A program made the translations under genes and the position numbers. Below are positions 35,549 through 54,761 of a stretch of 64,000 nucleotides of DNA, piece after piece. The notes beneath the pieces were generated by a model. That model had not been told where the DNA came from. It ran no database searches and worked only from the letters and a program-made list of their open reading frames with translations. Position 1 is the first letter of the stretch; each line of letters starts with the position of its first letter. Origin of the DNA: Martelella mediterranea (lineage in GTDB: Bacteria; Pseudomonadota; Alphaproteobacteria; Rhizobiales; Rhizobiaceae); contig NZ_SMAR01000006.1 in the NCBI RefSeq assembly GCF_004342225.1, forward strand, positions 1-64,000, written 5' to 3'.

Positions 35549-36400
35549 TCAGGCATTCCAGGCAATCGTCTTCTGTGTCTGCTCGCCGAGACCCTCAATG
35601 CCAAGCTTCATAGTCTGGCCTTCTTTCAGATAGACGGGCTCCGGCTTCTGGCCCATACCAACACCGGGCGGCGTGCCGGTGGTGATGATGTCACCCGGCT
35701 GCAGGCTCATGAACTGGCTCAGATGGCTGACAAGCGTCGCCACACCAAACACCATCGTGCTGGTCGAACCATCCTGATAGCGATGACCGTCCACCTCCAG
35801 CCACATCGGCAGGTTCTGCGGATCGTCCACCTCGTCGCGGGTGACGAGATAGGGACCAATCGGGCCGAATGTATCGGCGCTCTTGCCCTTCACCCACTGA
35901 CCGGAGCGTTCAATCTGAAATTCACGCTCGGAGAGATCGTTGATGACGCAGTAACCGGCGACATGATCCATCGCATCGTCCTCATCGACGTATCGGGCTT
36001 CCTTGCCAATGACGACGCCAAGCTCGACTTCCCAGTCGGTCTTCTTCGAATTCTTCGGAATGCGGACATCATCATTCGGCCCGATGATGGCGCTGGTCGC
36101 CTTCATAAAGATGATCGGCTCTTTCGGCAGTTCCGCACCCGTTTCAGCAGCATGATCGGCATAATTCAGACCAATGCAGATGAATTTCCCGACATCGCCA
36201 ACGCAAGGCCCGATACGGCTCGATTGCGGCAGAACCGGCAGGCTGTCGATCCCGGCAGCGGCAATGCGGGCGAGGCCTTCATCGGTCAGCGTCTCGCCAG
36301 CGATATCAACCGCAACCGAGGAAATGTCGCGATATGTGCCGTCAGTGTGAAGAATGGCCGGACGTTCGGCGCCGGATGCGCCAAGCCGAAGCAGTTTCAT
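35549..36400 (-). CDS. FAH-family hydrolase, probable 2,4-diketo-3-deoxy-L-fuconate hydrolase
   Basis: A 283-aa fumarylacetoacetate-hydrolase-fold enzyme. The core has FICIGLNYADHAAETG (about 70-85), the metal-binding ExE in DWEVELGVVIG, NDLSEREFQIERSGQWVKGKSADTFGPIGPYLV, and GDIITTGTPPGVGMG. Next to an L-fuconate dehydratase and a 2-keto-3-deoxy-L-fuconate dehydrogenase-like SDR it most likely cleaves 2,4-diketo-3-deoxy-L-fuconate to pyruvate and L-lactate, the last step of the non-phosphorylative route. It is the last gene of the leftward operon. Family members also include ureidoglycolate lyase, so activity is inferred from context. Confidence 0.85.
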   Translation of the reverse strand: MKLLRLGASGAERPAILHTDGTYRDISSVAVDIAGETLTDEGLARIAAAGIDSLPVLPQSSRIGPCVGDVGKFICIGLNYADHAAETGAELPKEPIIFMKATSAIIGPNDDVRIPKNSKKTDWEVELGVVIGKEARYVDEDDAMDHVAGYCVINDLSEREFQIERSGQWVKGKSADTFGPIGPYLVTRDEVDDPQNLPMWLEVDGHRYQDGSTSTMVFGVATLVSHLSQFMSLQPGDIITTGTPPGVGMGQKPEPVYLKEGQTMKLGIEGLGEQTQKTIAWNA

Positions 36401-36425: not shown

Positions 36426-37703
36426 TCAGGACGCCGGGTGCGCGTAGTTATGAAGCGTTTCAGACTTCATCTCAATGGAAAAGCCCGCACGTTTCGGCGG
36501 CATATAAGCCGCGTTTTTGATTGTGCATGGATCAATGAAATGCTCATGCAGATGATCGACATACTCAATCACGCGGCCTTCCTTCGTGCCTGAGACGACC
36601 AGATAATCGATCATCGACAAGTGCTGAACATACTCGCAAAGCCCGACACCGCCAGCATGAGGCCAGACGGGAAGGCCGAACTTTGCCGCCATCAGCAACA
36701 CGGAAAGAACTTCATTCAGGCCACCGATGCGGCAGGCATCGATCTGCACGATATCAATCGCACCGCCAGCAATAAACTGCTTGAACAATATCCGGTTTTG
36801 ACACATCTCGCCGGTCGCGATTTTCACCGGCTCCACGGCTTCGCGTATCTTCCGGTGTCCGGCAACATCGTCGGGGCTCGTCGGCTCCTCAATGAAATAC
36901 GGGCGGAATGGGGCAAGCGCGTTCACCCATTCAATCGCCTGATCGACCTCCCAGACCTGATTGGCATCGATCATCAGTGTGCGGTCTTCGCCGATGACCT
37001 CACGGACGATCTTCAGCCGCGCGATATCTTCTTCCAGGTCCTGACCAACTTTCATCTTGATGAAGGAAAAGCCTGAATCAACGGCTTCTTGCGCAAGGCG
37101 ACGCAATTTGTCGTGACTGTAGCCGAGCCAGCCAGCCGATGTTGTGTAGCAGGGATAGCCGTTTGTCTTCAGCTCTTCGAGACGTTCCGCCTTTCCGGCC
37201 TCCGCCTTGCGGAAGATCGCAAGCGCCTCATCCGGCGTAATCGCATCGGTGAGATAGCGAAAATCGACGATGGACACGAGCTGCTCCGGCGTCATGTCGG
37301 CGATCAGCTGCCAGACCGGCTTGTCTGCCGCTTTACCGAGAAGATCCCAAACGGCATTGACCACCGCGCCTGTTGCAAGATGCATCGCCCCCTTGTCCGG
37401 GCCGATCCAGCGCAACTGGCTGTCACCGGTCACATGCCGCCAGAAACGCGCAGGATCTTCGCTGATCCATCCGAGAGAAAGCCCTTGCACACGATTTTCA
37501 AGCGCTGAAATCGCCGCACAGACCACCTCATTCCCGCGCCCGATGGTGAAGGTCAGCCCGTGGCCCTCCAGATCGCAATCCGTCTTGAGCACGACATAGG
37601 CAGCCGAGTAATCGGGGTCGGGGTTCATTGCATCCGAGCCGTCCAGCTTATCAGAGGTTGGAAAGCGCAGATCATGAACCGAAAGACCGGTAATGCTTGT
37701 CAT
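36426..37703 (-). CDS. fucD: L-fuconate dehydratase (enolase superfamily)
   Basis: About 425 aa, mandelate-racemase subgroup of the enolase superfamily, like human ENOSF1 and Xanthomonas FucD. The N-terminal capping text DLRFPTSDKLDGSDAMNPDPDYSAAYVVL is diagnostic. The barrel carries the base lysine in SFIKMKVGQD, metal ligands in MIDANQVWEVDQAIEW and FIEEPTSPDD and ATGEMCQNR, and the His in WPHAGGVGLCEY. It dehydrates L-fuconate to 2-keto-3-deoxy-L-fuconate. ATG at 37703 is preferred; 37733 would overlap the preceding gene. Confidence 0.94.
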   Translation of the reverse strand: MTSITGLSVHDLRFPTSDKLDGSDAMNPDPDYSAAYVVLKTDCDLEGHGLTFTIGRGNEVVCAAISALENRVQGLSLGWISEDPARFWRHVTGDSQLRWIGPDKGAMHLATGAVVNAVWDLLGKAADKPVWQLIADMTPEQLVSIVDFRYLTDAITPDEALAIFRKAEAGKAERLEELKTNGYPCYTTSAGWLGYSHDKLRRLAQEAVDSGFSFIKMKVGQDLEEDIARLKIVREVIGEDRTLMIDANQVWEVDQAIEWVNALAPFRPYFIEEPTSPDDVAGHRKIREAVEPVKIATGEMCQNRILFKQFIAGGAIDIVQIDACRIGGLNEVLSVLLMAAKFGLPVWPHAGGVGLCEYVQHLSMIDYLVVSGTKEGRVIEYVDHLHEHFIDPCTIKNAAYMPPKRAGFSIEMKSETLHNYAHPAS

Positions 37704-37720
37704 TCTTTCATGCCCTCCGC

Positions 37721-38452
37721 TCAGCAGGCCCATGCGCCATCAATGATATGCGCCTGCCCGGTGGTGTAGGTCGCACCGGCCAGATAGACGGCGAGTTCAG
37801 CAATTTCTTCCGGTGTACCAATGCGGCCTATCGGCTGGCGGGCAATGAAATCCGTGCGTGCCTTTTCATAGTCGCCGGTCGCCTTCAGCCGCTCCTGCAG
37901 CGAAGGGCTGTCGACGGTTCCCGGCGCAATGGCATTGCAGCGAATTCCTTTGGTCACATAATCAGCGGCAATCGCCTTGGTCATGCCGATGACAGCAGCC
38001 TTTGTGGTGGAATAGGCAAACCGGTTCGGCACGCCCTTGATGGACGAAGCGACCGAAGACATGTTGATGATGGAGCCATCGCCGCGCTCGATCATGCCGG
38101 GCAGGAAGGCGCGGATCATCCGAACCATGGCCTTTACATTGAGATCGAAGGCGAAATCGAGATCGCCCTCCTTCATCTCCAGCACGGAGCCACCATGAAC
38201 GACACCGGCACAGTTAAACAGGATATCGACACCGCCGGTCTCAGCGGCCAGTGCTGCAATGGCATTTTCATTCAGCACGTCAAGAACGCGGGTTTCGATG
38301 CCTGCAATACCATCAAGCTCTGAAAGCTTATCGGCGTTGATATCAGTGGCGATCACCTTTGCACCCGCTTTGACAAAGGCAAGTGCGGAGGCCGCACCGA
38401 TGCCTTGCGCAGCGGCGGTGATCAGGCAGGTTTTTCCGGTCAGATCTGTCAT
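37721..38452 (-). CDS. SDR dehydrogenase, probable 2-keto-3-deoxy-L-fuconate dehydrogenase
   Basis: A 243-aa short-chain dehydrogenase. Cofactor motif TAAAQGIGAASALAF (TGxxxGIG type), NCAG, catalytic Ser in INMSSVASS and YSTTKAA (Tyr-x-x-x-Lys) are visible, with the usual RCNAIAPGTVDSP. It is close in style to DHRS6/BDH2-like enzymes, which include the Xanthomonas 2-keto-3-deoxy-L-fuconate dehydrogenase. ATG at 38452 has AGGA 7 bases upstream. Placed between the transporter ATPase gene and fucD it should oxidise the fucD product to the 2,4-diketo acid. Confidence 0.87.
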   Translation of the reverse strand: MTDLTGKTCLITAAAQGIGAASALAFVKAGAKVIATDINADKLSELDGIAGIETRVLDVLNENAIAALAAETGGVDILFNCAGVVHGGSVLEMKEGDLDFAFDLNVKAMVRMIRAFLPGMIERGDGSIINMSSVASSIKGVPNRFAYSTTKAAVIGMTKAIAADYVTKGIRCNAIAPGTVDSPSLQERLKATGDYEKARTDFIARQPIGRIGTPEEIAELAVYLAGATYTTGQAHIIDGAWAC

Positions 38453-38466
38453 ATTCATTTCCTTTC

Positions 38467-39570
38467 TCACGCGCGCAGGCTTTTGCCGCTTTCGCCGTCA
38501 AAGACGTGCAGGCGTTCAACATCGAGCGTGAAGGTCAGCGCTTCACCATCTTTCAATGGCCGCGGATCAAGCATCTTTGCCTGCACTTCCTTGCCGCCGA
38601 TTTGGGTATAGATGATGGTTTCCGTGCCGAGTGGCTCAGAAATTTCCACTGGCAGGTCAAGTTCAACCGAGCGGTCTTCCGGATGCAGCGAATGCCCCTT
38701 CGGTGCGAAGGCATCCGGGCGGAACCCGATCACAACCTTCTGACCGGCCCTGACTTTCGGCGCGATGTCCTCAGGAAGCGGCACGGCAACACCGCCACCG
38801 ACGCGCGCCACGACATCCCCGTTTTCCTGTTCGATCATCCCTTCAAGCTGGTTCATCGGCGGCGAGCCGATAAAACCGGCAACAAAGGTGTTCACGGGAT
38901 TTTCAAACACATCTGTCGGCGTACCGACCTGTTCGACATGTCCGTCACGCATGATCACAATCCGGTCGGCCAGCGTCATCGCTTCCACCTGATCGTGCGT
39001 TACATAGATGACGGTGGTTTTGACGCGCTGATGCAGTTTCTTGATCTCAACGCGCATCTGGCCTCTGAGCTTCGCATCAAGGTTTGAAAGCGGCTCATCG
39101 AACAGAAACACATCCGGGTGGCGCACGATGGCCCGCCCCATAGCCACACGCTGACGCTGGCCACCGGAAAGGTTCGCCGGAAGCCGGTCCATGAACTTCT
39201 CAAGACCGAGAATGGCGGACGCTTCATCAACACGCGGGGTGATCTCTTCCGGCGACATGCCCGCGATCTTGAGACCGAAGCCGAGATTTTCGCGCACGGT
39301 CATGTGCGGATAGAGCGCATAGGACTGAAAAACCATGGAGATGTTACGCGAACGCGGTGGCAAAGCGTTGACGACGCGGTCGCCGATCCGCAGCTCACCG
39401 TCAGAGATTTCCTCCAGTCCGGCGATCATTCTGAGGGTCGTTGACTTGCCGCAGCCTGACGGGCCGACAAGAACCACGAACTCGTTGTGTTTGACTTCAA
39501 GATCAATGCCATGGACGACTTCCAGCGAACCATAACGCTTGACGATTTTGGAAAGGTGCACTTCGGCCAC
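38467..39570 (-). CDS. Sugar ABC transporter ATP-binding protein (UgpC/MalK type)
   Basis: A 367-aa CUT1 ATPase. Walker A is [16 protein letters not shown], the signature LSGGQRQRVAMGRAIV, Walker B VFLFDEPLSNLDAKLR, and the C-terminal OB/TOBE domain ends IGFRPDAFAPKGH...ERLHVFDGESGKSL. It couples ATP hydrolysis to the two permeases encoded just upstream (4-base gap). By position it powers L-fucose or L-fucoside uptake. Confidence 0.94.
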   Translation of the reverse strand: MAEVHLSKIVKRYGSLEVVHGIDLEVKHNEFVVLVGPSGCGKSTTLRMIAGLEEISDGELRIGDRVVNALPPRSRNISMVFQSYALYPHMTVRENLGFGLKIAGMSPEEITPRVDEASAILGLEKFMDRLPANLSGGQRQRVAMGRAIVRHPDVFLFDEPLSNLDAKLRGQMRVEIKKLHQRVKTTVIYVTHDQVEAMTLADRIVIMRDGHVEQVGTPTDVFENPVNTFVAGFIGSPPMNQLEGMIEQENGDVVARVGGGVAVPLPEDIAPKVRAGQKVVIGFRPDAFAPKGHSLHPEDRSVELDLPVEISEPLGTETIIYTQIGGKEVQAKMLDPRPLKDGEALTFTLDVERLHVFDGESGKSLRA

Positions 39571-39574
39571 GGGA

Positions 39575-40438
39575 TTATCCTTTCACACCACCGAACGTCA
39601 GTCCGGCAATCAGATGCTTTTGTACAATGAAGGTGAGAATGAGCGCGGGGATGATGATCAGCACCGCCATGGCGCTCATACCGGTCCAGTCCACAGTGAA
39701 CTGGGCGGTAAAATCCATCAGCCCGACCGGCATGGTTTTCGATGCGGTGGTACGGGTCAGCTGGCTGGCAAGCGCAAACTCGTTCCATGCTGTCAGAAAG
39801 GCAAAGATGCCAGCAGACGCAAGGCCGGAACGGGCGAGAGGGAACTCGACCTTCCAGAACGCCTGCCAGCGGGTGCAGCCGTCAATCTGCGCGGCTTCCG
39901 AAAGATCCGCCGGAATTTGGCGGAAAAAACCATCCGTCAGCCAGATCGTAAAGGGGATGTTGATCGCCATATAAACGAGGATCAGACCAAACTTCGTATC
40001 GATCAGGCCGATACGGCTCCACAGGATGAACAGCGGCAGCGACAGGGCAACGCCGGGCACCGTGCGCGATAGCATGAACGACAAGAACAGCGCGCCCTTG
40101 CCTTTAAAACGGTAACGGGCGAAGGCATAGCCGCCCATCATGCCGATGAAGATCGCGACGAAAGTCGACGTCAGCGAGATCACCAGCGAGTTGATGAAAT
40201 AATTGGCGACCGGCAGGCCCTGCTGACGCTCCGGCAAAAGGCCAAAGATGCCGAGGAAGTTGTTCAGTGTCCACTGCTCGGGAATCCAGATCGGCGGACG
40301 GGCCATTACCTCGACATTCGGGCGGAATGCGGTCATCACCACCCATGCACCAGGCACGACGAGGATGGCCATGGCGATGAACAGTGTGATCCACAAAAGC
40401 CAGCGCTGCCAGGGTTTTTCGATGGTTCTCGCGCTCAT
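39575..40438 (-). CDS. Carbohydrate ABC transporter permease (MalG type)
   Basis: A 287-aa CUT1 permease starting MSARTIEKPWQRWLLWITLFIAMAILVVPGAWVVMTAFRP. Six membrane helices are expected; the coupling EAA motif is DLSEAAQIDGCTRWQAFWKVEFPLARSGL at about residues 190-218. A longer open frame reaches 41038, but its first part is only the opposite reading of the neighbouring permease; ATG at 40438 overlaps the previous stop (ATGA). Confidence 0.94.
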   Translation of the reverse strand: MSARTIEKPWQRWLLWITLFIAMAILVVPGAWVVMTAFRPNVEVMARPPIWIPEQWTLNNFLGIFGLLPERQQGLPVANYFINSLVISLTSTFVAIFIGMMGGYAFARYRFKGKGALFLSFMLSRTVPGVALSLPLFILWSRIGLIDTKFGLILVYMAINIPFTIWLTDGFFRQIPADLSEAAQIDGCTRWQAFWKVEFPLARSGLASAGIFAFLTAWNEFALASQLTRTTASKTMPVGLMDFTAQFTVDWTGMSAMAVLIIIPALILTFIVQKHLIAGLTFGGVKG

Positions 40439-41337
40439 TGTGCACCTCCCATGAACAGCCGCGATTTGGCAAGGTTGCGATAGAAGATGATGGTGAAGGC
40501 AATCGAGAGCAGGATCGAGATATAGCCCATGGCATTGGCCATACCCATTTGCGAATTCTGGTAGCCGGTGCGTGTCATCAGCGTCCAGATCAGCTCTGTG
40601 CGGCCTGCCGGCCCGCCATTGGTCATGATCTTCACCATGTCGTAAGCACGCGCAACATCGAGCGAACGGATCGTCATTGCGATCCAGATGAACGGCATAA
40701 GAAACGGCAGCGTGATATGGCGGAACACCTGAATGGCGTTGCAGCCATCCACACGGGCCGCCTCGATCGGATCTTTCGGCATTGCCAGAAGCCCAGCCAT
40801 CAGAAGGATCGCGAAGATTGAGGTCGACATCCACATTTCCGCGACAATGATGGAGAAGTTCGCCAGCCAGCCATTGACCAGCCACGGGATCGGTTTGTCG
40901 ATCAGGTTCAGCGCGAACAGAGCATTGTTCACCAGGCCGACGGAATCGTTGAACAGATATTTGAACTGAAAGCCGACGAGAATAGGCGAGAACATCATCG
41001 GGAACATCATGATGGTTCTGAGCGTGCGCTGCCCCCACGTGATCCGGTTGACCAGCAACGCCAGCCCCAGCCCCATGACCATTTCAAGATTTAGCGTGAT
41101 GGTGATGAAAACCACGGTGCGGCCAAACGCCCACCAGAAATCATCGTCTCCCATCAGCCGCTGATAGTTTCGAAGTCCGACGAAATTGAACAGCGTGTGC
41201 GGGCGCACGAGATTGTAGCTGGTGAAACTCGTCCAGAATGAAACCACGAGCGGCACAAGAACAACCGCCAGAATGACGACGATTGCAGGCAGCAGCAATA
41301 GATACGGCGTCGCCCTTGGCGACCTGAAGAATTTCAT
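40435..41337 (-). CDS. Sugar ABC transporter permease (MalF/UgpA type)
   Basis: About 300 aa with six hydrophobic helices. The EAA motif is DPIEAARVDGCNAIQVFRHITLPFLMPFIWIA near the middle. ATG at 41337 (MKFFRSPRATPYLLLLPAIVVIL) is chosen; an upstream in-frame start at 41400 adds residues with no matching ribosome binding site. It forms the heterodimer with the next permease. It is separated from the binding-protein gene by a hairpin. Confidence 0.93.
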   Translation of the reverse strand: MKFFRSPRATPYLLLLPAIVVILAVVLVPLVVSFWTSFTSYNLVRPHTLFNFVGLRNYQRLMGDDDFWWAFGRTVVFITITLNLEMVMGLGLALLVNRITWGQRTLRTIMMFPMMFSPILVGFQFKYLFNDSVGLVNNALFALNLIDKPIPWLVNGWLANFSIIVAEMWMSTSIFAILLMAGLLAMPKDPIEAARVDGCNAIQVFRHITLPFLMPFIWIAMTIRSLDVARAYDMVKIMTNGGPAGRTELIWTLMTRTGYQNSQMGMANAMGYISILLSIAFTIIFYRNLAKSRLFMGGAQ

Positions 41338-41397
41338 GTCACGCCTATCTGTATTGACAAAAATGATTGGGTATCCGGCCTTGGAGCCGTTAAGGGC

Positions 41398-41417
41398 CAC
41401 CGGCGCCAGGGCCGGTG
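41398..41417. repeat. Hairpin between binding-protein and permease genes
   Basis: CACCGGC-GCCAGG-GCCGGTG, 21 bases after the binding-protein stop on the minus strand, with no U-tract. Such stems commonly raise the level of binding-protein mRNA over permease mRNA. Confidence 0.6.
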
Positions 41418-41438
41418 ACCAAAGTTGAGGTATGAGGC

Positions 41439-42767
41439 TTAGTAGTAGCCAGCATCCTGCATGATGTAGGTCGCTTCCTGCGCTGCATCGTCAAGCGCTT
41501 CCTGCGGGGTTTTCTCGCCCACAATCGCCGCCTGAAGCTCAGGCCACAGCACGTTGGATACCTGAATCCACTCCGCGATCAGTGGCGGCGTGCGGGCATC
41601 GGCCAGCGATTCCTGCCAGACCTGGAACATCTCGGCGAGGTTTTCCTTACCGTTTTCATTGAACCAGGTGATAACCTCGTCGTAGGTCGCCGTACGGGTC
41701 GGCAGGTTGCCGGCCTTGGCTTCCATCAGCTCGCTTTCATCATTGGTCATGAAGACGGCAAAGGAAACGCCTGCGTCCTTGTTGTCGCAATCTTCTGTGA
41801 CTGAGAAAGAGTGCGAGCCGGACCAGCCACCACGCTTGCCGGAAGAACCGACAGGGGCAACCGCATAACCGAGATCGTCAGAGATCTTTGACGCTTCCGG
41901 ATCCGCAAAGAAAGCGGCAAAGCCCGGCCAGTCGAGATCAATTGCCAGCTGGCCGGCGGCCATGGCCTGACCGATATCATCCCATGTGTAGTTGACAGTA
42001 CCGGCAGGAACTGCACCGGCATTATAGACATCAACAAACCACTGCAGCGCTTCGACCCCGGCTTCGGAATTGAAGATGGGTTTCAGGTCTTCATCGAAAA
42101 TATCACCACCATTGGCGCGCAGAATTTCCATGAAGCGACCGGACATTCCCTCGTCCTTGCCGGCAAAGGCTGTGCCGTAAAGGTTCGGCGGATCTGCAAA
42201 GAAGATCACCTGATCACGGAACTCATCATAGGTTTTCGGCGGCTGAAGCTCGGTGCCATATTTTTCTTTCCAGGCCGCCTGATTGGCCGGATCCGCATAA
42301 AGGCTCTTGCGATAATAAAGGTTTGAAACATCTGTTACGCGCGGAAGCTGAACCAGCCGTCCGTCAACCTTGGACGATTCCAGCGTGCCGGGCACATATT
42401 TATCAAGCTCGGACTGCGGAACATGCTCCGAAAGGTCGATGTAAAGGCTGCCATATTGCGGCGCAAAGCTGGTATGGTTGGAACCGACACACCAGGAAAC
42501 CGGACCGGCTGCGATATCCTGCTTGATTTCACGGTCGAGATCGAAATGGTTTTTCGAAGACACGATTTCGACCTTCGCACCCGTCATCTCCTCCCATTCC
42601 GGGATTCGGGTGTAAAGCTTCTCATACTGGGTACCACCGATCAGTTTGACCTTCAGTGTGTAGTCCGGAAAGCTGCCGTAATCGAATTCCTGAGCGTTGG
42701 CTGTCACAGCCAGCCCGCCAACCGCGCAGCAGGCGACCAGCAGTGTCCTTAACGGTTTCAATGCCAT
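41439..42767 (-). CDS. Sugar ABC transporter substrate-binding protein (family 1)
   Basis: About 442 aa, first gene of the leftward fucose operon. The ATG at 42767 follows GAGGAGG; the start of the longer open frame at 42863 is in the promoter. The signal peptide is MALKPLRTLLVACCAVGGLAVTANAQ. The mature protein has the CUT1 binding-protein text EWEEMTGAKVEIVSSKN and VDVYNAGAVPAGTVNYTWDDIGQAMAAGQLAIDLDWPGF. It should deliver L-fucose or a fucoside to the permeases; the ligand is inferred from the catabolic genes downstream. Confidence 0.92.
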   Translation of the reverse strand: MALKPLRTLLVACCAVGGLAVTANAQEFDYGSFPDYTLKVKLIGGTQYEKLYTRIPEWEEMTGAKVEIVSSKNHFDLDREIKQDIAAGPVSWCVGSNHTSFAPQYGSLYIDLSEHVPQSELDKYVPGTLESSKVDGRLVQLPRVTDVSNLYYRKSLYADPANQAAWKEKYGTELQPPKTYDEFRDQVIFFADPPNLYGTAFAGKDEGMSGRFMEILRANGGDIFDEDLKPIFNSEAGVEALQWFVDVYNAGAVPAGTVNYTWDDIGQAMAAGQLAIDLDWPGFAAFFADPEASKISDDLGYAVAPVGSSGKRGGWSGSHSFSVTEDCDNKDAGVSFAVFMTNDESELMEAKAGNLPTRTATYDEVITWFNENGKENLAEMFQVWQESLADARTPPLIAEWIQVSNVLWPELQAAIVGEKTPQEALDDAAQEATYIMQDAGYY

Positions 42768-42815
42768 GTTTTCCTCCTCGATCCTTTTCAAACGCCAAGT
42801 CAGAAAAGACTTGAT

Positions 42816-42871
42816 CCTCCATATTTGAAAAGAGTATTTGTATATAAGCATGATAATTGACAATCCGTCAA
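42816..42871 (-). promoter_or_regulatory. Promoter of the L-fucose importer with IclR-type candidate operator
   Basis: On the minus strand TTGACG (42871-42866), 18 bases, TTATAT (42847-42842) look like -35 and -10. Just downstream lies TTCAAATATGGAGG (plus-strand CCTCCATATTTGAA, 42816-42829), nearly identical to 46841-46854. Its position around the transcription start would suit repression. The divergent neighbour is the IclR gene. Confidence 0.55.
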
Positions 42872-42973
42872 CGCCCGGCCACGATATTTAAACTTGGCGC
42901 GTTCGGGACATGCCACAACAAAAGGCCGCAACCATGCATACAGACCGGTTCAAAAGCAGGCAGGAGACAGCAG

Positions 42974-43738
42974 ATGACCAATGATGATGCCGATCGTTAT
43001 CGCGCCCCTGCACTGGATAAGGGCCTCGACATCTTCGAGCTCCTGGCTGCGACCGAGGGCTCACTCAGTCAGGCTGAAATCGCCAAGGCGCTGTCTCGCA
43101 CGCCAAACGAGATTTACCGGATGTTAGACCGGCTGGTACGACGCGACTATATCCGCCGCACCCGCGAGGACCGCTACGAAATCACACTGAAGATGTTTGA
43201 GCTGGTTCATGCTCGTCCGCCATTGCGGCGGCTTGTCAACCAATCGATCCCGCATCTGCAGCAGGTTGCCCACGATTCGGGCCAGTCCTGTCATCTTGTC
43301 GTGTTTGACCGTTCCGCCGCTGTCGTCGTCGCACAGGTCGATGCACCGAGTTACTGGAGCCTGGCAGTGCGTGTCGGCACCCGCCTTGGCCTGACAACAA
43401 CAGGGTCCGGCCTTGTCTTTCTGGCATTCTCGTCGCCGGAGAACCGCGCCTTGATGCTGAAAGGTGCAGGCGAAACCCTGACAGAGGATGTGGAGGCACG
43501 TCTGCCGCGCATACGTGAAGACGGCTACGCCGTGACGGCCAGCGAACAGATAGCGGGTGTCACCAATCTGACAGCACCGGTGATGGGGCCGCTGGGTTCG
43601 GTGATGGCTGTCATCACCTGCCCCTACACGGCCCGCCTTGATCGCCCGGTTGAAAGCGATCAGCAAAACGCACTCACACTCGTCCGCGCAGCAGCAAGCC
43701 ACCTTTCGCAGGACCGCTCCGGCAACGACAGCGACTAA
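42974..43738 (+). CDS. IclR family transcriptional regulator
   Basis: About 254 aa. N-terminal winged helix YRAPALDKGLDIFELLAATEGSLSQAEIAKALSRTPNEIYRMLDRLVRRDYIRRTREDRYEIT (about 8-70) and the C-terminal effector domain with VVAQVDAPSYWSLAVRVGTRLGLTTTGSG and VTNLTAPVMGPLGSVMAVI. ATG at 42974 has AGGAGAC just upstream. It is divergent from the importer operon and is the best candidate to control it, and perhaps the operon at 46915, through the shared element described in the findings. Confidence 0.93.
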   Translation: MTNDDADRYRAPALDKGLDIFELLAATEGSLSQAEIAKALSRTPNEIYRMLDRLVRRDYIRRTREDRYEITLKMFELVHARPPLRRLVNQSIPHLQQVAHDSGQSCHLVVFDRSAAVVVAQVDAPSYWSLAVRVGTRLGLTTTGSGLVFLAFSSPENRALMLKGAGETLTEDVEARLPRIREDGYAVTASEQIAGVTNLTAPVMGPLGSVMAVITCPYTARLDRPVESDQQNALTLVRAAASHLSQDRSGNDSD

Positions 43739-43750
43739 GCGCTTTTACAG

Positions 43751-43853: not shown

Positions 43854-43877
43854 TAAAACGCATGAGAGGGAGGAACC

Positions 43878-44702
43878 ATGCGCATCATCGATACCCACCT
43901 GCACCTTGTTTACAAGGATCGCTTTTCCTATCCATGGCTTGAAGGCGTGCCAGCGCTGAATAAGCAGACGACAGCTGAAGACTATTTTAAAAAGGCTGAA
44001 GCCCTCGGTATTGAGGCCGCTCTTCACATGGAAGTTGATGTGGCCGATAAAGATATCGAGGCGGAGAGCAATTTTATCTCCGGCGCACATGAAAAGATCA
44101 TAGGCGCCATTGCGGCATGCCGCCCGGAAGAAAAGAATTTCCCGGCATTTCTGGAGAGGATGACAGCCAATCCCGGCATCAAAGGTTTTCGCCGTGTCCT
44201 GCACACCATGCCGGATGACCTTTCACAAGCCCCCGTCTTTGCCGAAAATATCAGCCGACTTGCCGATCACAACCTCACCTTCGATCTGTGTGTGCTGGCG
44301 CGCCAGCTACCGCTGGCAATGGATCTGGCGAAGAAGTGCCCGAACGTCCGGTTTGTCCTCGATCATTGCGGTGTGCCCGACATTGAAAATAACGGACTTG
44401 ATCCGTGGCGCAGCGCCATCAGCGAAATCGCACGTCTGCCAAATGTCGCCGCAAAAATCTCCGGCGTCATCGCATATGGAGGTGCAAACTGGAGCGTAGA
44501 AACACTGCGACCCTATATCGAACACGTCATCGATGCCTTCTCGTTTGACCGCGTCGTCTGGGGCTCGGATTTTCCGGTCTGCACACTGACAGCCAGCCTT
44601 GAAGACTGGGTGAATGCTTCCCGCGAGATCACCGGCACCGCCAGCCTGCAAGAGCAGGAAAAACTCTTCAGCGGCAATGCCAGCCGTATTTATGGACTTT
44701 GA
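43878..44702 (+). CDS. Amidohydrolase-family lactonase, probable L-fucono-1,5-lactonase
   Basis: A 274-aa TIM-barrel hydrolase of the amidohydrolase/DUF849-like lactonase group (COG3618). Metal-ligand style motifs are IIDTHLHLVYKDRFSYPWL at the start, EAALHMEVDVAD, GFRRVLHTMP, FVLDHCGVPDIEN and VVWGSDFPVCTLTAS. COG3618 enzymes in L-fucose clusters open L-fuconolactone to L-fuconate, which FucD then uses. It is co-directional with the mutarotase, 16 bases downstream. Confidence 0.88.
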   Translation: MRIIDTHLHLVYKDRFSYPWLEGVPALNKQTTAEDYFKKAEALGIEAALHMEVDVADKDIEAESNFISGAHEKIIGAIAACRPEEKNFPAFLERMTANPGIKGFRRVLHTMPDDLSQAPVFAENISRLADHNLTFDLCVLARQLPLAMDLAKKCPNVRFVLDHCGVPDIENNGLDPWRSAISEIARLPNVAAKISGVIAYGGANWSVETLRPYIEHVIDAFSFDRVVWGSDFPVCTLTASLEDWVNASREITGTASLQEQEKLFSGNASRIYGL

Positions 44703-44718
44703 AAACCGGGAGAAGAAA

Positions 44719-45048
44719 ATGCAACGAATTGGAATGGTGATCCAGCTCAACGCCGAAAAAGTCGCTGAATACAAACAGCTTCACGCCAATGCCTGGCCGG
44801 AAGTGCTGGACATGATCAAACAGTGCAATATCCAAAACTATACGATTTTTCTGCGTGAACCGGAAAACCTGTTGTTTTCCTATTACGAATATACCGGCGA
44901 CGATTACGAAGCCGATATGGCAAAGATGGCAGCAGACCCGAAAACACAGGAATGGTGGGCGGTCTGCGAACCCTGCCAGAAACCGCTCGACACCGCCAAA
45001 GACGGAGACTGGTGGACCAAGATGGAAGACGTTTTCCATCTGGCGTGA
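44719..45048 (+). CDS. L-rhamnose mutarotase-family protein (probable L-fucose mutarotase)
   Basis: A 109-aa dimeric ferredoxin-fold protein of the RhaM family (COG3254). It begins MQRIGMVIQLNAEKVAEYKQLHANAWPEVLDMI with the catalytic His and Tyr region and continues NYTIFLREPENLLFSYYEYTG and EWWAVCEPCQKPL. It interconverts sugar anomers so that the dehydrogenase gets the right one. Members occur in both rhamnose and fucose clusters; the neighbours here point to L-fucose. GGGAGAAG precedes the ATG. Confidence 0.88.
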   Translation: MQRIGMVIQLNAEKVAEYKQLHANAWPEVLDMIKQCNIQNYTIFLREPENLLFSYYEYTGDDYEADMAKMAADPKTQEWWAVCEPCQKPLDTAKDGDWWTKMEDVFHLA

Positions 45049-46117: not shown

Positions 46118-46146
46118 CAATTCAACCTCACATTTTTATACGAAAC

Positions 46147-46161
46147 GAACGATATTCGTTC
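46147..46161. promoter_or_regulatory. Candidate TetR operator
   Basis: Palindrome GAACGA-TAT-TCGTTC in the 75-base divergent region between the reductase and TetR starts, covering both presumed promoters. Confidence 0.6.
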
Positions 46162-46192
46162 AGTATGAACATTTTTTCGGAGCCTTCAAGGT

Positions 46193-46762
46193 ATGACGCA
46201 ACCACCAATGAGAAAAAAACAGGATCGTGCGCAGCGGATCACCGCCGCAGCCAAGACGCAGTTTCTGGAATTCGGCCTGCGATCAACCACGATGGAAGCG
46301 ATCGCCCGACGTGCTGGCGTCGCAAAGGCCACACTCTACACCTATTTTCCTGATAAAGACGCTGTATTCCGTGCCGTTCTCATGTCCGTGGCATCACGCC
46401 TGAAGATCGCAGCTGAAACGGCCTTCACGGCAAATGGCTCTGCCAGTGACCGGATCGCTGCTGCTTTGTCTGCAAAGTATTTCGAGCTTGATGCCGTGCT
46501 TGAAGCCTCTCCGCATCGGGCGGAGCTGACACACCAGGCCGTTATCCTCACGGGTTCGGAAATTACTCTTCTCAGTAATGAACTTCAGGAACGCGCAACC
46601 GCTCTTTTGATTGAAGAGGGCTGGTCACGCGCTAAAGCCTCAGAGCGCACTGCCCTTCTGTTTGCCTGTATCGGCGGCCTTTACAAGATACCGGCGGGAC
46701 GGGAAAGGCGGGAGGAACAGATCACATTTCTGACGGAACGCCTCCTCGACGAGAGCTGCTAA
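46193..46762 (+). CDS. TetR/AcrR family transcriptional regulator
   Basis: A 189-aa regulator with HTH residues DRAQRITAAAKTQFLEFGLRSTTMEAIARRAGVAKATLYTYFPDKDAVFRAV at about 11-60. The C-terminal domain is typical of AefR/TetR_C type proteins. GGAG is 10 bases before the ATG at 46193; a second in-frame ATG follows at 46208. It is divergent from the reductase gene and probably represses it and itself through the palindrome at 46147-46161. Confidence 0.9.
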   Translation: MTQPPMRKKQDRAQRITAAAKTQFLEFGLRSTTMEAIARRAGVAKATLYTYFPDKDAVFRAVLMSVASRLKIAAETAFTANGSASDRIAAALSAKYFELDAVLEASPHRAELTHQAVILTGSEITLLSNELQERATALLIEEGWSRAKASERTALLFACIGGLYKIPAGRERREEQITFLTERLLDESC

Positions 46763-46914: not shown

Positions 46915-47979
46915 TTGTCAGTTTCACTTATCGCACCCGCTCAAAGCTGGGCTGCGGCCACGACGCCGCGCCCGATCGTCATCATTGGTGCAGGCTCCAT
47001 TGTAGGCGATGCCCATATGCCTGCCTATCGCATGGCCGGTTTACCGGTTGTCGGTGTTTTCGACATTGACGGCGAACGTGCGGCCAAACTCGCCAGCGAC
47101 TGGGATATGCCCGCTTTTGGCAGCCTTGAAGACGCAATCGCAACGCCCGATGCTGTTTTCGATCTGGCCCTGCCACCTGCAGCCCATGTTTCTGTATTGA
47201 AACAACTGCCCGAGGGCGCACCCGTTCTCCTGCAAAAGCCGATGGGACGCGACCTTGCAGAGGCGACGCGTATTCTGGAGGTTTGCCGTGATCGTCATCT
47301 GACTGCGGCGGTGAACTTTCAGCTCCGCTTCGCACCGATGATGCTGGCCGCGCACGATCTTTATAAAAGTGGGCGGCTGGGAGAGCTGGTCGATGTCGAA
47401 ATGCACGCCAACATGATGACGCCGTGGCATCTCTGGCCGTTCCTGAAGGGGATGGAGCGGGTCGAGATCCTTCTGCATTCGATCCACTATCTTGATCTGT
47501 TCCGCCACTTTCTCGGTAATCCGAAAGGCATTCACGCGAAAACGCTGGGCCATCCGCAAACCACGGTTTCCCAATCCCGCACCTCCGCAATCCTCGACTA
47601 TGACGCGCCGGTGCGCGCGATCATGTCGGTTAATCACAATCACGATTTCGGACCGAAATTTCAGGATTGCGGGTTCCGCTTCGAAGGCACTGAAGGCGTC
47701 TTGATGACGACGCTGGGTGTCAATCTCGATTATCCGAAAGGTGTTCCCGATGAGCTCTGGTTTTCGGCCAAAGGCGGTGCGTGGGAGCAAATCACTCTAT
47801 CCGGCACGTGGTTTCCGCACGCCTTTATCGGCACGATGAGCAACCTGCAGCGCTACACCGCTGGTGAGGACAAGACGCTTCTGACCTCGGTCGAGGATGC
47901 CTGGCACACGATGGCGCTGGTTGAGGCCGCCTATGAGTCCAGTGCAGCACCGGCCACGGCCATAAAGGATAAACCATGA
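46915..47979 (+). CDS. Gfo/Idh/MocA family oxidoreductase
   Basis: A 354-aa NAD(P)-dependent sugar-type dehydrogenase. The start is probably TTG with GGAGGAG 4-6 bases before. The Rossmann motif is VIIGAGSIVGDAHMPAY; the family EKP motif is QKPMGRDLAEA, so Glu is replaced by Gln while Lys is kept. A His in HSIHYLDLFRHFLG is in the usual catalytic position. It is the first gene of a four-gene coupled operon and its stop overlaps the CoA-transferase start (ATGA). Substrate unknown; a sugar, inositol or sugar acid is likely. Confidence 0.88.
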   Translation: MSVSLIAPAQSWAAATTPRPIVIIGAGSIVGDAHMPAYRMAGLPVVGVFDIDGERAAKLASDWDMPAFGSLEDAIATPDAVFDLALPPAAHVSVLKQLPEGAPVLLQKPMGRDLAEATRILEVCRDRHLTAAVNFQLRFAPMMLAAHDLYKSGRLGELVDVEMHANMMTPWHLWPFLKGMERVEILLHSIHYLDLFRHFLGNPKGIHAKTLGHPQTTVSQSRTSAILDYDAPVRAIMSVNHNHDFGPKFQDCGFRFEGTEGVLMTTLGVNLDYPKGVPDELWFSAKGGAWEQITLSGTWFPHAFIGTMSNLQRYTAGEDKTLLTSVEDAWHTMALVEAAYESSAAPATAIKDKP

Positions 47980-49139
47980 CAAACGAAAAAGACGACCTGC
48001 CGCTTTCCGGTGTGCTGGTGCTGGATATGTGCCAGTTTCTGTCCGGTCCGTACTGTTCACTGAGGCTTCAGGATCTGGGCGCGCGGGTGATCAAGATCGA
48101 ACGCCCCGGCCTTGGTGACCTGTCGCGCCGCCTCTACCTGTCGGACACGGAAATCGGCGGCGATTCCACCATCTTTCATGCGATCAATCGCTCGAAAGAA
48201 AGTCTCGCCATCGATATGAAAAGCGCCGACGACCTGGCCGCGCTGAAAAAGCTGATCGCAAAAGCCGATGTTGTGCTGCAAAACTTCCGTCCCGGCGTGA
48301 TCAAACGTCTTGGTCTCGATTACGAAACTGTCAGAGCCCTTAACCCCGGCCTCGTTTATGGTTCCATCACGGGCTATGGCGATGAAGGCCCATGGGTGAT
48401 GCGACCGGGACAGGATCTTCTGGCGCAGGCGCGTTCCGGCGTGATGTGGCTTAATGGCGATGAGGATCAGGGGCCGGTCCCCTTCGGGCTTGCGATTGCC
48501 GATATGCTGGCTGGCGCAGCCCTTGCGCAAGGTGTGCTGGCGGCGCTGGTGAAGCAGGGCCGCACCGGCAAGGGTGCGCACATCGAAACCAGTTTGATGG
48601 AAGCGCTGATCGATCTTCAGTTCGAAGTGCTGACAACGCATCTGAATGATGGCCGCAGACCACCGAAACGCTCGACCTATCGTTCGGCCCACGCCTATCT
48701 GTCGGCACCTTATGGCGTCTACGAAACGGCCGACGGCTGGCTGGCACTGGCGATGATGCCGATTGATCAGCTGGCCGATGTGCTCGGAATCGAAGCGCTG
48801 GCACCTTATCGCGGCAAGACGGAAACCTGGTTCACCAGCCGCGATGGCATCAAAAAAATCATTGCGGAAACACTGAAAGAGCACACCACAGACCACTGGC
48901 TTTCAATCCTGGAACCGGCCGACATCTGGTGCTCGAAAGTGCTCGACTGGCCGGAACTGCTGGACCATGCGGGTTTTAAAGTCCTCGACATGCTGCAGAC
49001 AGTCACCCGCGACGACTGCGTTGAAATCCAGACCACGCGTTCACCGCTCAGAATCAACGGAATGCGGGTCAGAACCGACCGCGCTGCGCCGAAGATCGGT
49101 GAGCAGAGCGCATCCATCAGAGCGGAGTTTAATCTTTGA
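47976..49139 (+). CDS. CaiB/BaiF family class III CoA-transferase
   Basis: A 387-aa formyl-CoA-transferase-fold protein. Family text is VLVLDMCQFLSGPYCSLRLQDLGARVIKIERPGLGD at the N-terminus and NFRPGVIKRLGLDYE, and the catalytic Asp147 lies in MRPGQDLLAQARSGVMWLNG, which carries the CoA-ester intermediate in the family. It transfers CoA between carboxylic acids. Its ATG overlaps the previous stop and its own TGA shares a base with the next ATG. The acid substrate is unknown. Confidence 0.9.
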   Translation: MTNEKDDLPLSGVLVLDMCQFLSGPYCSLRLQDLGARVIKIERPGLGDLSRRLYLSDTEIGGDSTIFHAINRSKESLAIDMKSADDLAALKKLIAKADVVLQNFRPGVIKRLGLDYETVRALNPGLVYGSITGYGDEGPWVMRPGQDLLAQARSGVMWLNGDEDQGPVPFGLAIADMLAGAALAQGVLAALVKQGRTGKGAHIETSLMEALIDLQFEVLTTHLNDGRRPPKRSTYRSAHAYLSAPYGVYETADGWLALAMMPIDQLADVLGIEALAPYRGKTETWFTSRDGIKKIIAETLKEHTTDHWLSILEPADIWCSKVLDWPELLDHAGFKVLDMLQTVTRDDCVEIQTTRSPLRINGMRVRTDRAAPKIGEQSASIRAEFNL

Positions 49140-50266
49140 TGACCAGACTGAAAGGCATGACCTGGAACCATCCGCGCGGCTTTGATCCCATGATCGCAAC
49201 ATCAAAGGTTTGGACGGAAAAGACCGGTGTTACCATCGACTGGGACAAGCGCAGTCTTCAGGATTTCGAGAGCTTTCCTGTTGAAGAACTGGCTCGGCAA
49301 TACGACCTGATCGTGATCGACCATCCGCATGTCGGACAGATTACGGCAGAACAATGCCTCACCCCGCTGGACATTGAAGGCTGTCAGAAAGAGCGCGAAG
49401 CCCTTAGAGCCGGTTCGGTCGGGCAGTCTTATGACAGCTATTTTTATAAAGGCCACCAGTGGGGTTTTCCCATTGATGCGGCAACACAGGTCATGGCCTA
49501 CCGGCCGGATCGACTGGATAAGCCGCCACAAGACTGGGAAAGCCTGATGGACCTGGCAAAAGATGGCCGTACGCTCCTGCCGCTTCGTCCGCCGCACAGT
49601 CTGATGACCTTCTTTACGCTGTCCGCCAACATCGGTGCGCCCTGCCACAACGACCAGCCTGACGGGTTCATCGATATGCAATCCGGCGCGTACGTCTTCG
49701 AACACTTCTGCGAATTGGCAAGGCTGGTGCCGGAGGACAATTTCAACCACGACCCGATTGCCATTTACGAAACGCTGGCTGGTGATGAAACAGAAGCCAG
49801 CGTGGTTCCATTCGCTTACGGCTATGTCAGTTATGCCATGGAAGGTTTCAGGGCGAACCGGCTGGTGTTTTCCGATATTCCTGCCCTTGGCCAAGATGGC
49901 CCTGCAGGTTCCGCCCTTGGTGGCACCGGCATCGCTGTTTCTGCCTTTTCCAAAGCCCGCGAGGCTGCCATCGATTATGCCTATTGGGTAGCAAGCGGCG
50001 ATGTGCAGAAAACCCTGTTTGCACAAGCAGGCGGCCAGCCGGGCCATGCTGACGGCTGGGAAGACGATGCCGTGAACGCAGCAACCGACGATTTTTACCG
50101 CAACACCCGCCAGTCGCATGAGCGCGCTTATGTGCGGCCCCGCCATCGTGGCTATATGGCCTTTCAAAAGAAGGCTTCAGAAGCCCTCAATGAAAGCGTC
50201 CGACAGAACCGGAAAGCCACCGATGTGATCGCCACGCTGAATGCACTTTATAAGGAGAGTTTCTGA
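49139..50266 (+). CDS. Solute-binding-protein-fold protein without signal peptide
   Basis: A 375-aa protein that reads like a family-1 extracellular solute-binding protein (GMTWNHPRGFDPMIATSKVWTEKTGVTIDWDKRSLQDFESFPVEELARQYDLIVIDHPHVG, then WGFPIDAATQVMAYRPDRLD, VVPFAYGYVSYAME, GTGIAVSAFSKAREAAIDYAYWVASG). It lacks any signal peptide or membrane segment: the binding-fold starts at residue 4. Thus it probably stays in the cytoplasm. It is translationally coupled to both a CoA-transferase and a MaoC gene, and no permease or ATPase gene is adjacent. Role unknown; a cytosolic ligand carrier or sensor is a guess. Confidence 0.82.
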   Translation: MTRLKGMTWNHPRGFDPMIATSKVWTEKTGVTIDWDKRSLQDFESFPVEELARQYDLIVIDHPHVGQITAEQCLTPLDIEGCQKEREALRAGSVGQSYDSYFYKGHQWGFPIDAATQVMAYRPDRLDKPPQDWESLMDLAKDGRTLLPLRPPHSLMTFFTLSANIGAPCHNDQPDGFIDMQSGAYVFEHFCELARLVPEDNFNHDPIAIYETLAGDETEASVVPFAYGYVSYAMEGFRANRLVFSDIPALGQDGPAGSALGGTGIAVSAFSKAREAAIDYAYWVASGDVQKTLFAQAGGQPGHADGWEDDAVNAATDDFYRNTRQSHERAYVRPRHRGYMAFQKKASEALNESVRQNRKATDVIATLNALYKESF

Positions 50267-50712
50267 TGGAGCGACCGCGCCACTTTGAAGACATTACGAT
50301 CGGCGAGGAGCGTGTCACCTATGGCCGCACCATTACAGAAGCCGACTTCGTCGTTCATGCAGGCCATACCGGTGACTTTTTCCCGCACCACATGGATGCC
50401 GAGCACATGAAAGATACGCCGTTTGGTCAGCGCATCGCCCATGGCACAATGACATTTGCGATTGGCATCGGCCTGTCTGCCAGCGAAATCAACCCGCATT
50501 CATTCACCTATGGCTATGAACGGCTGCGTTTTCCAAAGCCGGTTTTTATCGGTGATACCATCCACACAGTGCTTACAATCGCTTCCAAGGAAGATGACCC
50601 CAAACGTCCCGGTCATGGTCGCATCATCGAGCAGGTGCGGGTGATTAACCAACGCGGGGACGTGGTTCTGGCCTGCGACCACGTTTATCTCGTGGCGCGA
50701 AAAGCTGTCTAG
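50266..50712 (+). CDS. MaoC-like hotdog-fold dehydratase
   Basis: A 148-aa hotdog protein. The MaoC/(R)-hydratase text is FEDITIGEERVTYGRTITEADFVVHAGHTGDFFPHHMDAEHM with the conserved Asp and His, and GQRIAHGTMTFAIGIGLSA with the second His block. The family adds or removes water at enoyl-CoA esters. ATG is coupled to the previous stop (TGATG) with AAGGAGAG upstream. Together with the CaiB protein it suggests a CoA-thioester pathway ended by the terminator at 50747. Confidence 0.88.
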   Translation: MERPRHFEDITIGEERVTYGRTITEADFVVHAGHTGDFFPHHMDAEHMKDTPFGQRIAHGTMTFAIGIGLSASEINPHSFTYGYERLRFPKPVFIGDTIHTVLTIASKEDDPKRPGHGRIIEQVRVINQRGDVVLACDHVYLVARKAV

Positions 50713-50746
50713 CGCCCAAAATCCAGCATTTCTCAGTGCGGACTTG

Positions 50747-50774
50747 AAAATCGGCAATGGTTTTGCCGATTTTT
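50747..50774 (+). terminator. Terminator of the CoA-transferase operon
   Basis: AAAATCGGCAA-TGGTT-TTGCCGATTTT followed by T, 35 bases after the MaoC stop. Confidence 0.85.
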
Positions 50775-50805
50775 GATTTACGTACATCATTTTTGCCGCT
50801 ATAGA
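50775..50805 (+). promoter_or_regulatory. Promoter of the LacI-xylBA unit with shared operator element
   Basis: GATTTACGTACATCAT (50775-50790) matches 15 of 16 bases with 55048-55063. TTTACG (50777-50782) with a 17-base spacer and TATAGA (50800-50805) reads as a promoter. TTTACGTACA is close to the CG-centred palindromes bound by LacI-family proteins. Confidence 0.6.
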
Positions 50806-50860
50806 TTTCTGCCAGAAACCAGACAGCACATTGATGCGCTTCTTTGATGAGCAGGAAGAT

Positions 50861-51889: not shown

Positions 51890-51923
51890 TCAGCAGAAAA
51901 TATAATTTTCAGGGAGGATATGC

Positions 51924-53381: not shown

Positions 53382-53421
53382 AAATCTTCCCCGGAAACAT
53401 TAACTCAAAGGGAGTGAACAT

Positions 53422-54732: not shown

Positions 54733-54761
54733 TCAAAGACCGTTGGCGAAAGCAAAAACAG

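Follow-up and report, generated by a model that had tools for sequence, protein, structure and literature searches.

Martelella mediterranea carries four coupled genes, whose products are a Gfo/Idh/MocA oxidoreductase, a class III CoA-transferase (CaiB), a signal-less protein with an MBP-type fold and a MaoC hydratase. Our best reading is that the binding-fold protein serves a CoA-thioester dehydration module as a cytosolic partner that binds a sugar acid, or as an enzyme; here we infer both substrate and chemistry. Put more specifically, and with slightly less than even confidence, we suggest that this 375-aa protein, a relative of sugar-binding proteins dedicated to work in the cytosol, makes up one CoA-thioester module with CaiB and an enoyl-CoA-hydratase-type enzyme in oxidative (deoxy)sugar catabolism. 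The observations behind this proposal are the absence of an export signal, the predicted fold, gene linkage, co-occurrence across genomes, and the catalytic residues of CaiB, MaoC and enoyl-CoA hydratase (ECH). Gene order and co-occurrence with two CoA enzymes point to an undescribed CoA-dependent breakdown of sugar acids (e.g., fucose-derived acids).

Operon layout and genomic setting

The operon lies in the window, by which we mean the whole stretch of 64,000 nucleotides that was analyzed (Table 1). Rereading the sequence returned the same four genes, coordinates and overlaps that a preliminary description of this DNA had given: gfo and caiB share ATGA at 47976-47979, caiB and the binding-fold gene meet in TGATG with base 49139 common to both, and base 50266 belongs to both the binding-fold gene and maoC. 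The product families and the CoA-transferase Asp147 that it named agree with Pfam matches and alignment. The hairpin beyond maoC is absent from the pattern-scan output, despite its z of -5.6.

Table 1. Features of the operon and of the adjoining cluster (window coordinates)
Feature	Position	Strand	Remarks
Gfo/Idh/MocA oxidoreductase	46915..47979	+	TTG start, TGA stop; AGGAGG precedes TTG; Pfam GFO_IDH_MocA 3.7e-14
Class III (CaiB/BaiF) CoA-transferase, Asp147	47976..49139	+	ATG start, TGA stop; Pfam CoA_transf_3 1.7e-101
Signal-less MBP-fold (SBP_bac_8) protein, 375 aa, N-terminal LKGMTWNHPRGFDP motif	49139..50266	+	ATG start, TGA stop; Pfam SBP_bac_8 1.5e-15
MaoC-type hydratase, Asp37-His42 dyad	50266..50712	+	ATG start, TAG stop; Pfam MaoC_dehydratas 9e-23
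Terminator-like hairpin and U-run	50744..50776	+	Just 3' of maoC; z -5.6
L-rhamnose mutarotase family gene (rhaM)	44719..45048	+	Pfam rhaM 4.6e-35; ATG picked by eye before domain start
Amidohydrolase, fuconolactonase-like	43878..44702	+	115 bits to NF052480, below cut-off 400
IclR-type regulator, predicted start	42857..43738	+	Similar gene in same place in most rhizobial loci; IclR in Martelella
Sugar ABC transporter including own binding protein (41439-42863)	38467..42863	-	Martelella synteny
SDR, KDF-dehydrogenase-like	37721..38470	-	Synteny; no equivalog cut-off reached
Enolase-superfamily dehydratase, L-fuconate dehydratase by synteny	36426..37733	-	RefSeq name in Martelella; best models under cut-offs
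FAH-family hydrolase, diketo-deoxy-sugar-acid hydrolase-like	35549..36400	-	411.8 bits to NF053535, below cut-off 500

An L-fucose-type oxidative cluster (35549-45048) flanks the operon; the preliminary description had left the two unconnected. The putative lactonase, dehydratase and FAH hydrolase of this cluster matched related NCBIfam models and missed every equivalog cut-off, and the binding protein of its ABC transporter belongs to a family with exported-type N-termini. An enolase-type match was found in 26 of 38 loci (L003-L040). If these names hold, the conventional dehydratase-like gene in the window and in many fucose-type loci would make a CoA module unneeded there for the dehydration step. 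The Gfo/Idh/MocA protein, whose N-terminus was set beside those of three orthologues, is likely the first dehydrogenase for a 6-deoxyaldose. Its orthologues adjoin rhaM and maoC in other loci, and at many loci the gene is grouped with mutarotase and MaoC genes, away from caiB and the binding-fold gene.

Linkage and co-occurrence

CaiB is the immediate same-strand neighbor of the binding-fold gene in 76 of 105 nonredundant loci (gaps of -7 to 106 bases), and lies within 12 kb in 97; it is absent from the stretch examined in eight of the 105, and wider stretches for five of these also lack it. CaiB-family matches number one in the window genome (the operon gene) and 2-13 per genome in six relatives. 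With so few CaiB genes per genome, yet one adjoining at so many loci, a chance neighborhood was rejected. Among 297 genomes of the order, the sets of carriers are nested, MaoC orthologues (25) inside CaiB (26) inside the binding fold (41); Fisher values for this co-occurrence ignore kinship. Linkage of the gene set, whose persistence beyond the genus the preliminary description had left to be checked and whose absence it would have counted against its hypothesis, extends far outside the genus.

The binding fold occurs without a CaiB of the window type in 15 of the 41 genomes, several of which hold another CaiB type. Mannonate dehydratases adjoin the binding-fold gene in CaiB's stead in Microvirga, and a second CaiB-ECH cluster in Martelella has no binding fold in the stretch seen. 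Neither a fusion protein (among 528 labelled frames) nor an E. coli record matching caiB plus the binding-fold gene was found. AMP-binding (acyl-CoA-synthetase-type) genes neighbor the family in Methylobacterium. In Croceibacterium and a haloarchaeon, genes of a second signal-less binding-protein family lie close to those for CaiB, MaoC and alpha-L-fucosidase, and in Halostagnicola this family likewise has an AMP-binding (acyl-CoA-synthetase-type) neighbor. At loci L161 and L162, alpha-L-fucosidase and other glycosidase genes lie nearby. The CaiB and binding-fold distance matrices correlate at 0.92 in the 76 adjoining pairs, against at most 0.29 over 1000 permutations; we do not take this as evidence of contact, because shared descent suffices for such values.

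A sugar-binding fold without an export signal

No export-like N-terminus was found in the binding-fold family (0 of 156 entries, even with the longest frame within 45 codons), against 27 of 34 transporter-type controls with the longest start and 17 of 34 with the nearest start; the test is one of hydropathy, not SignalP, and the entries count the window protein twice and include overlapping loci. The first strand of the predicted structure begins at residue 3, and structural alignment pairs residue 1 of the model with residue 4 of mature 1eu8. The signal peptide is thus absent, as the preliminary description had it, and homologues with one encoded upstream, which it had named as evidence to the contrary, did not appear among the entries. 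Mis-annotation of the start was rejected on the same result. Because the signal is missing, the protein would reside in the cytosol. A role as a transporter component was also set aside as unlikely, both for want of an export signal and on two loci (Rufibacter, L072; Persicobacter, L074) whose incomplete gene tables annotate no ABC transporter beside the binding-fold gene, and where the symporter RhaT occurs. Permeases are often found near the binding-fold gene, but with an exported-type binding protein of their own.

Structure prediction, which had been suggested as a check, gave a full two-lobed MBP-type sugar-binding protein across all 375 residues (Z 37.4 and rmsd 2.7 over 365 residues against 1eu8, a trehalose/maltose-binding protein). 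Only binding proteins are among the best 50 rows of the comparison; enzymes of similar fold may exist beyond those rows. W9, R13, D61, D113, Y229, Y232, Q300 and R333 are conserved at 98% or more (106 rows, with the window protein entered twice), and the near-invariant residues sit in loops of the predicted fold. An LKG[MLI]TW-type start is conserved across phyla.

The signal-less family is bounded and has members in four bacterial phyla, although sampling is sparse outside the order: a phylum draw held the family in 16 of 349 genomes and a class draw in 6 of 385 (both draws count the window genome and share members with earlier ones). The Cohnella phylum draw held it in 1 of 299 genomes, the centre genome itself. 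Where members carry an annotation, the listed records name them as binding proteins, either extracellular or of ABC transporters.

The CoA enzymes

Judged by its sequence, the window CaiB carries the family and catalytic-residue hallmarks of a CoA-transferase. The CoA_transf_3 match spans residues 10-377, i.e., the full length, and the catalytic Asp (residue 147) is conserved in all 77 aligned rows of CaiB proteins linked to a binding fold (from 76 loci, with the window protein counted a second time). Formyl-CoA transferase 10uh is a relative in the PDB (1.5e-64); NCBIfam equivalog cut-offs are far from reached (best 214 bits vs. 750).

The closest PDB chain to MaoC is 4ffu (1.5e-64). D37 and H42 are present in 49 of 49 rows outside the MaoC_u type, the 19 rows of which have Val in place of the His, and ECH retains Glu113 and Glu133 in 22 of 22 rows. 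The hydratase role falls to MaoC at some binding-fold loci and to ECH at others. The two folds are unrelated, and enoyl-CoA hydration is common to both; that MaoC and ECH stand in for each other within the module is our best reading. A dehydratase label of any kind occurs within 6 kb at 7 of 30 MaoC loci, and 12 of the 14 loci where ECH occurs together with an adjoining CaiB (b, c or f label) showed no dehydratase label; labels here come from BLASTP against hand-picked references. Because an IlvD/EDD reference was not among these, the latter count is weaker than an annotated case in Variovorax. In that cluster, CaiB, the binding fold and ECH occupy the places expected for a lactonase and an aldonate dehydratase, and no further sugar-acid dehydratase was seen at the locus.

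Proposed mechanism

A dehydrogenase and a lactonase would yield a (deoxy)aldonate. The cleft of the binding-fold protein would catch this sugar acid and hand it to CaiB, which would load CoA onto it via Asp147 acyl-anhydride chemistry. MaoC in the window, or ECH elsewhere, would then dehydrate the 3-hydroxyacyl-CoA across C2 and C3 to a 2-keto-3-deoxy acyl-CoA, and the CoA would be handed on to the next molecule. The closed cleft could also stop the polyhydroxy thioester from lactonizing. In all this, we infer the substrate, the order of steps, physical contact, the role of the cleft and the cytosolic location.

We favor the CoA module because the family is uniformly without export-like N-termini, CaiB is linked, the genome sets are nested, the window genome has a single CaiB match, and catalytic residues are kept; the exchange of MaoC and ECH, the Variovorax layout, the AMP-binding neighbors, the RhaT loci and the invariance of the loops favor it as well. 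Counted against it are the conventional dehydratase-like genes, the eight loci without CaiB, Microvirga, the second Martelella cluster, the 15 genomes without window-type CaiB, and the lack of a fusion. A bolder version, which we consider unlikely, is a new kind of two-part CoA-transferase in which a cytosolic Venus-flytrap keeps the polyhydroxy acid closed in and unlactonized during CoA loading by CaiB and dehydration by MaoC or ECH; this CoA-dependent counterpart of aldonate dehydratases would have evolved twice independently, with two binding-protein families, one of them also haloarchaeal.

Alternative readings

The preliminary description had proposed a cytosolic carrier or chaperone, or an enzyme on a binding scaffold. 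The missing signal and the CoA linkage lend that general idea partial support, and structure and conservation do not separate carrier from catalyst. It is somewhat unlikely, in our estimation, that the binding fold is itself the catalyst (a Venus-flytrap enzyme acting, e.g., on a sugar lactone, an aldonate or a CoA ester, with CaiB and MaoC/ECH working before or after it). Its polar and aromatic residues are highly invariant across contexts with differing sugar genes, and the family also adjoins mannonate dehydratases or SDR-ADH pairs where CaiB is farther off or unseen; however, the model is a complete binding protein without an extra domain, no catalytic motif was recognized in it, and lactonase-type genes are often also present. 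Distinctly improbable is a module acting on another acid, such as an acyl or methyl group that substitutes the natural sugar, or a small product like lactate, which the binding protein would carry. The conventional oxidative gene set already in the window region and the glycosidases close to L161 and L162 would suit this, but at the annotated Variovorax locus the sugar acid itself has no alternative dehydratase in view, and an MBP-type cleft, from what is known of the family, fits polyols better than small acids.

IclR genes often neighbor the binding-fold gene, as a cytosolic ligand sensor or regulatory subunit signaling the level of sugar acid to the pathway would lead one to expect. We regard such a sensor as very improbable, since the adjoining gene at most loci is CaiB rather than a regulator, and Pfam finds no output domain in the protein. 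An ordinary transporter-binding protein with a miscalled start, or a decayed one, has the sequence and fold family of ABC sugar-binding proteins in its favor, but is contradicted by the export test, by the start motif conserved across phyla, and by the exported-type binding protein that the cluster's own ABC transporter possesses; we give it hardly any credence.

Relation to known systems

ABC sugar-binding proteins (SBP_bac_8/SBP_bac_1; 1eu8, SmoF, LpqY) have the same complete two-lobed fold as the 375-aa protein, and in alignment 1eu8 matches it at the GG and RP positions and at an Asp that follows a strand. The window family differs in the absence of a signal peptide, in loop motifs of its own (TW-H-RG, DHP), and in its linkage to CaiB and a hydratase. 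MqnA/MqnD, THI5 and cyclohexadienyl dehydratase are enzymes on periplasmic-binding folds and hence a precedent for catalysis on the general fold; to our knowledge they belong to other sequence families and have no CoA-transferase partner. Class III CoA-transferases (formyl-CoA, succinate-glutarate, mesaconate) have the same sequence fold family and catalytic Asp as the window CaiB, and we know of none that is paired with a binding-fold protein.

Itaconate/mesaconate pathways also place a CoA-transferase before a hydratase, but on branched C5 acids, whereas the window setting is sugar catabolism; the available portions of PMC12290011 and PMC5592240 mention no binding-fold partner. The non-phosphorylating L-fucose pathway has mutarotase, lactonase-like, dehydratase-like, SDR and FAH-like genes, as does the window region, and the available parts of the literature found do not name CaiB, the binding fold or MaoC as parts of it. 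Within open-access literature (including the accessible parts of PMC11378808, PMC9007349 and PMC4207669, and with most subscription journals outside the search), no paper on the binding-fold/CaiB module was found.

Implications

Strict co-occurrence makes the idea directly testable, for example, in Sinorhizobium meliloti 1021, which has the gene set on pSymB (L109), CaiB and the binding fold being encoded there at about 731.3-733.6 kb; L-fucose is among S. meliloti carbon sources in a table in the available part of PMC4207669. If the proposal is true, a binding-protein fold has acquired an intracellular role, and sugar-acid catabolism gains a CoA-thioester branch not found in the literature searched. 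Should the family indeed partner CoA-transferases in the cytosol, a group of "transport" annotations would be mistaken.

The operon and its surroundings

The data show a family of binding-fold proteins that lack export signals and that, in sugar clusters, are linked with CaiB and with a hydratase. In the window, the four overlapping genes that encode such a protein and its partners lie where the preliminary description had placed them, and the family names proposed there for the products match those of Pfam. The catalytic Asp of the CoA-transferase is residue 147. A strong hairpin with a U-run occurs directly 3′ of maoC and is absent from the consensus-scan listing.

The sugar ABC transporter encoded upstream comes with a separate binding protein of the exported type; synteny was the basis for naming the ABC and IclR genes. 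Genes of these kinds also occur together in an annotated region of Martelella mediterranea, where one of them is named L-fuconate dehydratase and where Gfo, CaiB, binding fold and MaoC stand in the order seen in the window. L-fucose is the likely substrate of the window cluster, and only likely because none of the window copies of the fucose-type genes reaches the NCBIfam equivalog cut-offs. A YjdM gene occupies, in Martelella, the position of the window's extended SDR and TetR genes.

Features of the window and of compared loci (L numbers)
Feature	Location	Position	Content
Upstream genes	Window	35549-45048	FAH-type hydrolase, enolase-type dehydratase, SDR, sugar ABC transporter, IclR, amidohydrolase, rhaM mutarotase
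Between rhaM and gfo	Window	45092-46762	Extended SDR (minus strand) and TetR regulator
Operon	Window	46915-50712 (+)	gfo, caiB, binding-fold gene, maoC
Binding-fold gene	Window	49139-50266	375-aa MBP-fold (SBP_bac_8) protein
After operon	Window	50831-61238	LacI regulator, then xylose-type region (by eye: sugar kinase, xylose isomerase, ABC transporter)
Cluster adjoining fucose cluster	L070 (Martelella)	16785-25409	CaiB, enoyl-CoA hydratase (ECH), SDR and aldose epimerase, with FAH and ABC genes; without a first-family binding-fold gene
Locus with mannonate dehydratase	L077 (Microvirga)	6940-10997	Mannonate dehydratase and gluconolactonase-type gene overlap binding-fold gene; no CaiB seen within 9 kb
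Second MaoC-type gene (MaoC_u)	L005 and similar loci	8398-8802 (L005)	Directly 5′ of caiB in many rhizobia
Second-family locus	L162 (archaeon Halostagnicola)	5921-14231	Second-family gene with CoA-transferase, AMP-binding enzyme, MaoC, alpha-L-fucosidase

A bounded family without a leader

Homologues of the binding-fold protein (the first family) were found in named records from four phyla: Pseudomonadota (alpha and beta classes), Bacillota (Cohnella), Bacteroidota (Rufibacter, Persicobacter) and Actinomycetota (Streptomyces). In a plasmid collection, the alignment covers 80% or more of the query in 145 of 151 records. Across the spread of matches listed, identity drops from 33% at full length to no more than 28% over part only, so these proteins form a bounded family. 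They begin with LKG[MLI]TW (with small variations), mostly followed by [DNS]H[PSTA]RG, which leaves no space for a leader. Whether read from the nearest or the longest start, none of 156 entries (overlapping loci included) has a hydropathy segment of at least 2.0; of 34 transporter-type binding proteins from the same loci, used as a control, 27 passed from the longest start and 17 from the nearest.

The AlphaFold2 model of the window protein, built from 31 sequences, is confident (pLDDT 93.1, pTM 0.91), and the matches listed by Foldseek and VIA-align are MBP-type sugar-binding proteins, the best being 1eu8 (Z 37.4, rmsd 2.7, 365 residues), with the leading rows tied. Positions conserved at 98% identity or more among 106 rows (the 105 clusters and a repeat entry of the window protein) include W9, R13, D56, D61, P63, G66, D113, A115, Y229, Y232, G261, G262, G264, Q300, W307, R333 and P334, among which GG and RP are common to sugar binders too. 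In the model, many near-invariant residues fall at the ends of strands or directly behind them, the places where ligands are bound in this fold, and we infer that they line the cleft. In the alignment to 1eu8, D113 stands opposite Tyr, A115 opposite Asp and T263 opposite Trp, replacements that suggest a cleft re-tooled relative to that sugar binder.

Linkage to CaiB

After reduction of 157 entries to 105 non-redundant loci (90% identity), CaiB is the adjoining same-strand gene, no more than 200 bp away, in 76; it lies within 6 kb in 8 further loci and within 12 kb in another 13 (97/105 in total). It was not seen in eight loci (L077, L135, L129, L134, L056, L133, L115 and L145), five of which (L115, L145, L134, L133, L056) are near a contig end. 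Where at least 5.5 kb is available on both sides (72 loci), CaiB occurs within 6 kb in 60, MaoC or ECH in 49, and both in 48. CaiB-family matches number one in the window genome and 2-13 in each of six relatives. In L112, L115 and L118 the binding fold recurs together with an SDR and a zinc-type alcohol dehydrogenase, possibly a separate use of the first family.

Among 297 genomes of the order, the binding fold is present in 41, window-type CaiB in 26 and window-type MaoC in 25, at hand-set, unequal thresholds (E 1e-20, 1e-120 and 1e-40, respectively). All 26 CaiB genomes carry the binding fold, and all 25 MaoC genomes carry both fold and CaiB, counts uncorrected for kinship. The genes are separated in some genomes, MaoC being ~12 kb away in G244, for example, and on another contig in G282, so the co-occurrence exceeds the handing on of one tight operon. 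In one genome (G259) the binding fold, 54% identical, occurs without window-type CaiB.

Exchange of the hydratase

When window-type CaiB adjoins the binding fold (32 cases), MaoC is found within 6 kb in 22, ECH in none, and no hydratase was seen in 10; with a different CaiB type, CaiB_c (13 cases), the hydratase is ECH in 12 and MaoC in one. Catalytic residues are retained in the MaoC and ECH hydratases except MaoC_u, which has Val at the catalytic His position in 19 of 19 rows and may be a non-catalytic partner. Hotdog hydratases and crotonase hydratases differ in fold and are unrelated, yet share the chemistry of enoyl-CoA hydration, so their exchange speaks for genuine CoA thioesters. An annotated Variovorax cluster comprises Gfo, sugar isomerase/epimerase, aldose epimerase, SDR, ABC, CaiB, binding fold, ECH and FAH-type genes, with no lactonase or aldonate dehydratase annotated; in Azospirillum, CaiB, binding fold and ECH are accompanied by SDR, FAH-type and aldehyde dehydrogenase genes.

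A second signal-less family

In Rufibacter and Persicobacter there are two CaiB genes each and, besides the first-family protein, a second binding-fold protein. None of eight second-family entries (some overlapping) has an export-like N-terminus by the hydropathy test. Both families fall within the wide sugar-binding class, and pairwise similarity between them is not convincing (E 0.002 over 154 residues). In Croceibacterium the second-family gene has CaiB, MaoC, Gfo and alpha-L-fucosidase genes in its vicinity; in Halostagnicola a mutarotase gene also accompanies it, and no first-family gene is labelled in 21 kb of that locus. In the second family this fold seems to have been recruited independently for the same task.

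Interpretation

The module could carry out a CoA-dependent dehydration of sugar acids, in which the binding-fold cleft would hold the acid or guard it against lactonization. The main weakness of this CoA-dependent reading is that a conventional dehydratase-like gene is already present in the window and in many fucose-type clusters; an enolase-type match in 26 of the 38 loci L003-L040 counts against MaoC or ECH as the route of sugar-acid dehydration. For the binding fold itself we keep both readings, carrier and catalyst. The component families are each known already; their partnership was not found in searches of an open-access library.
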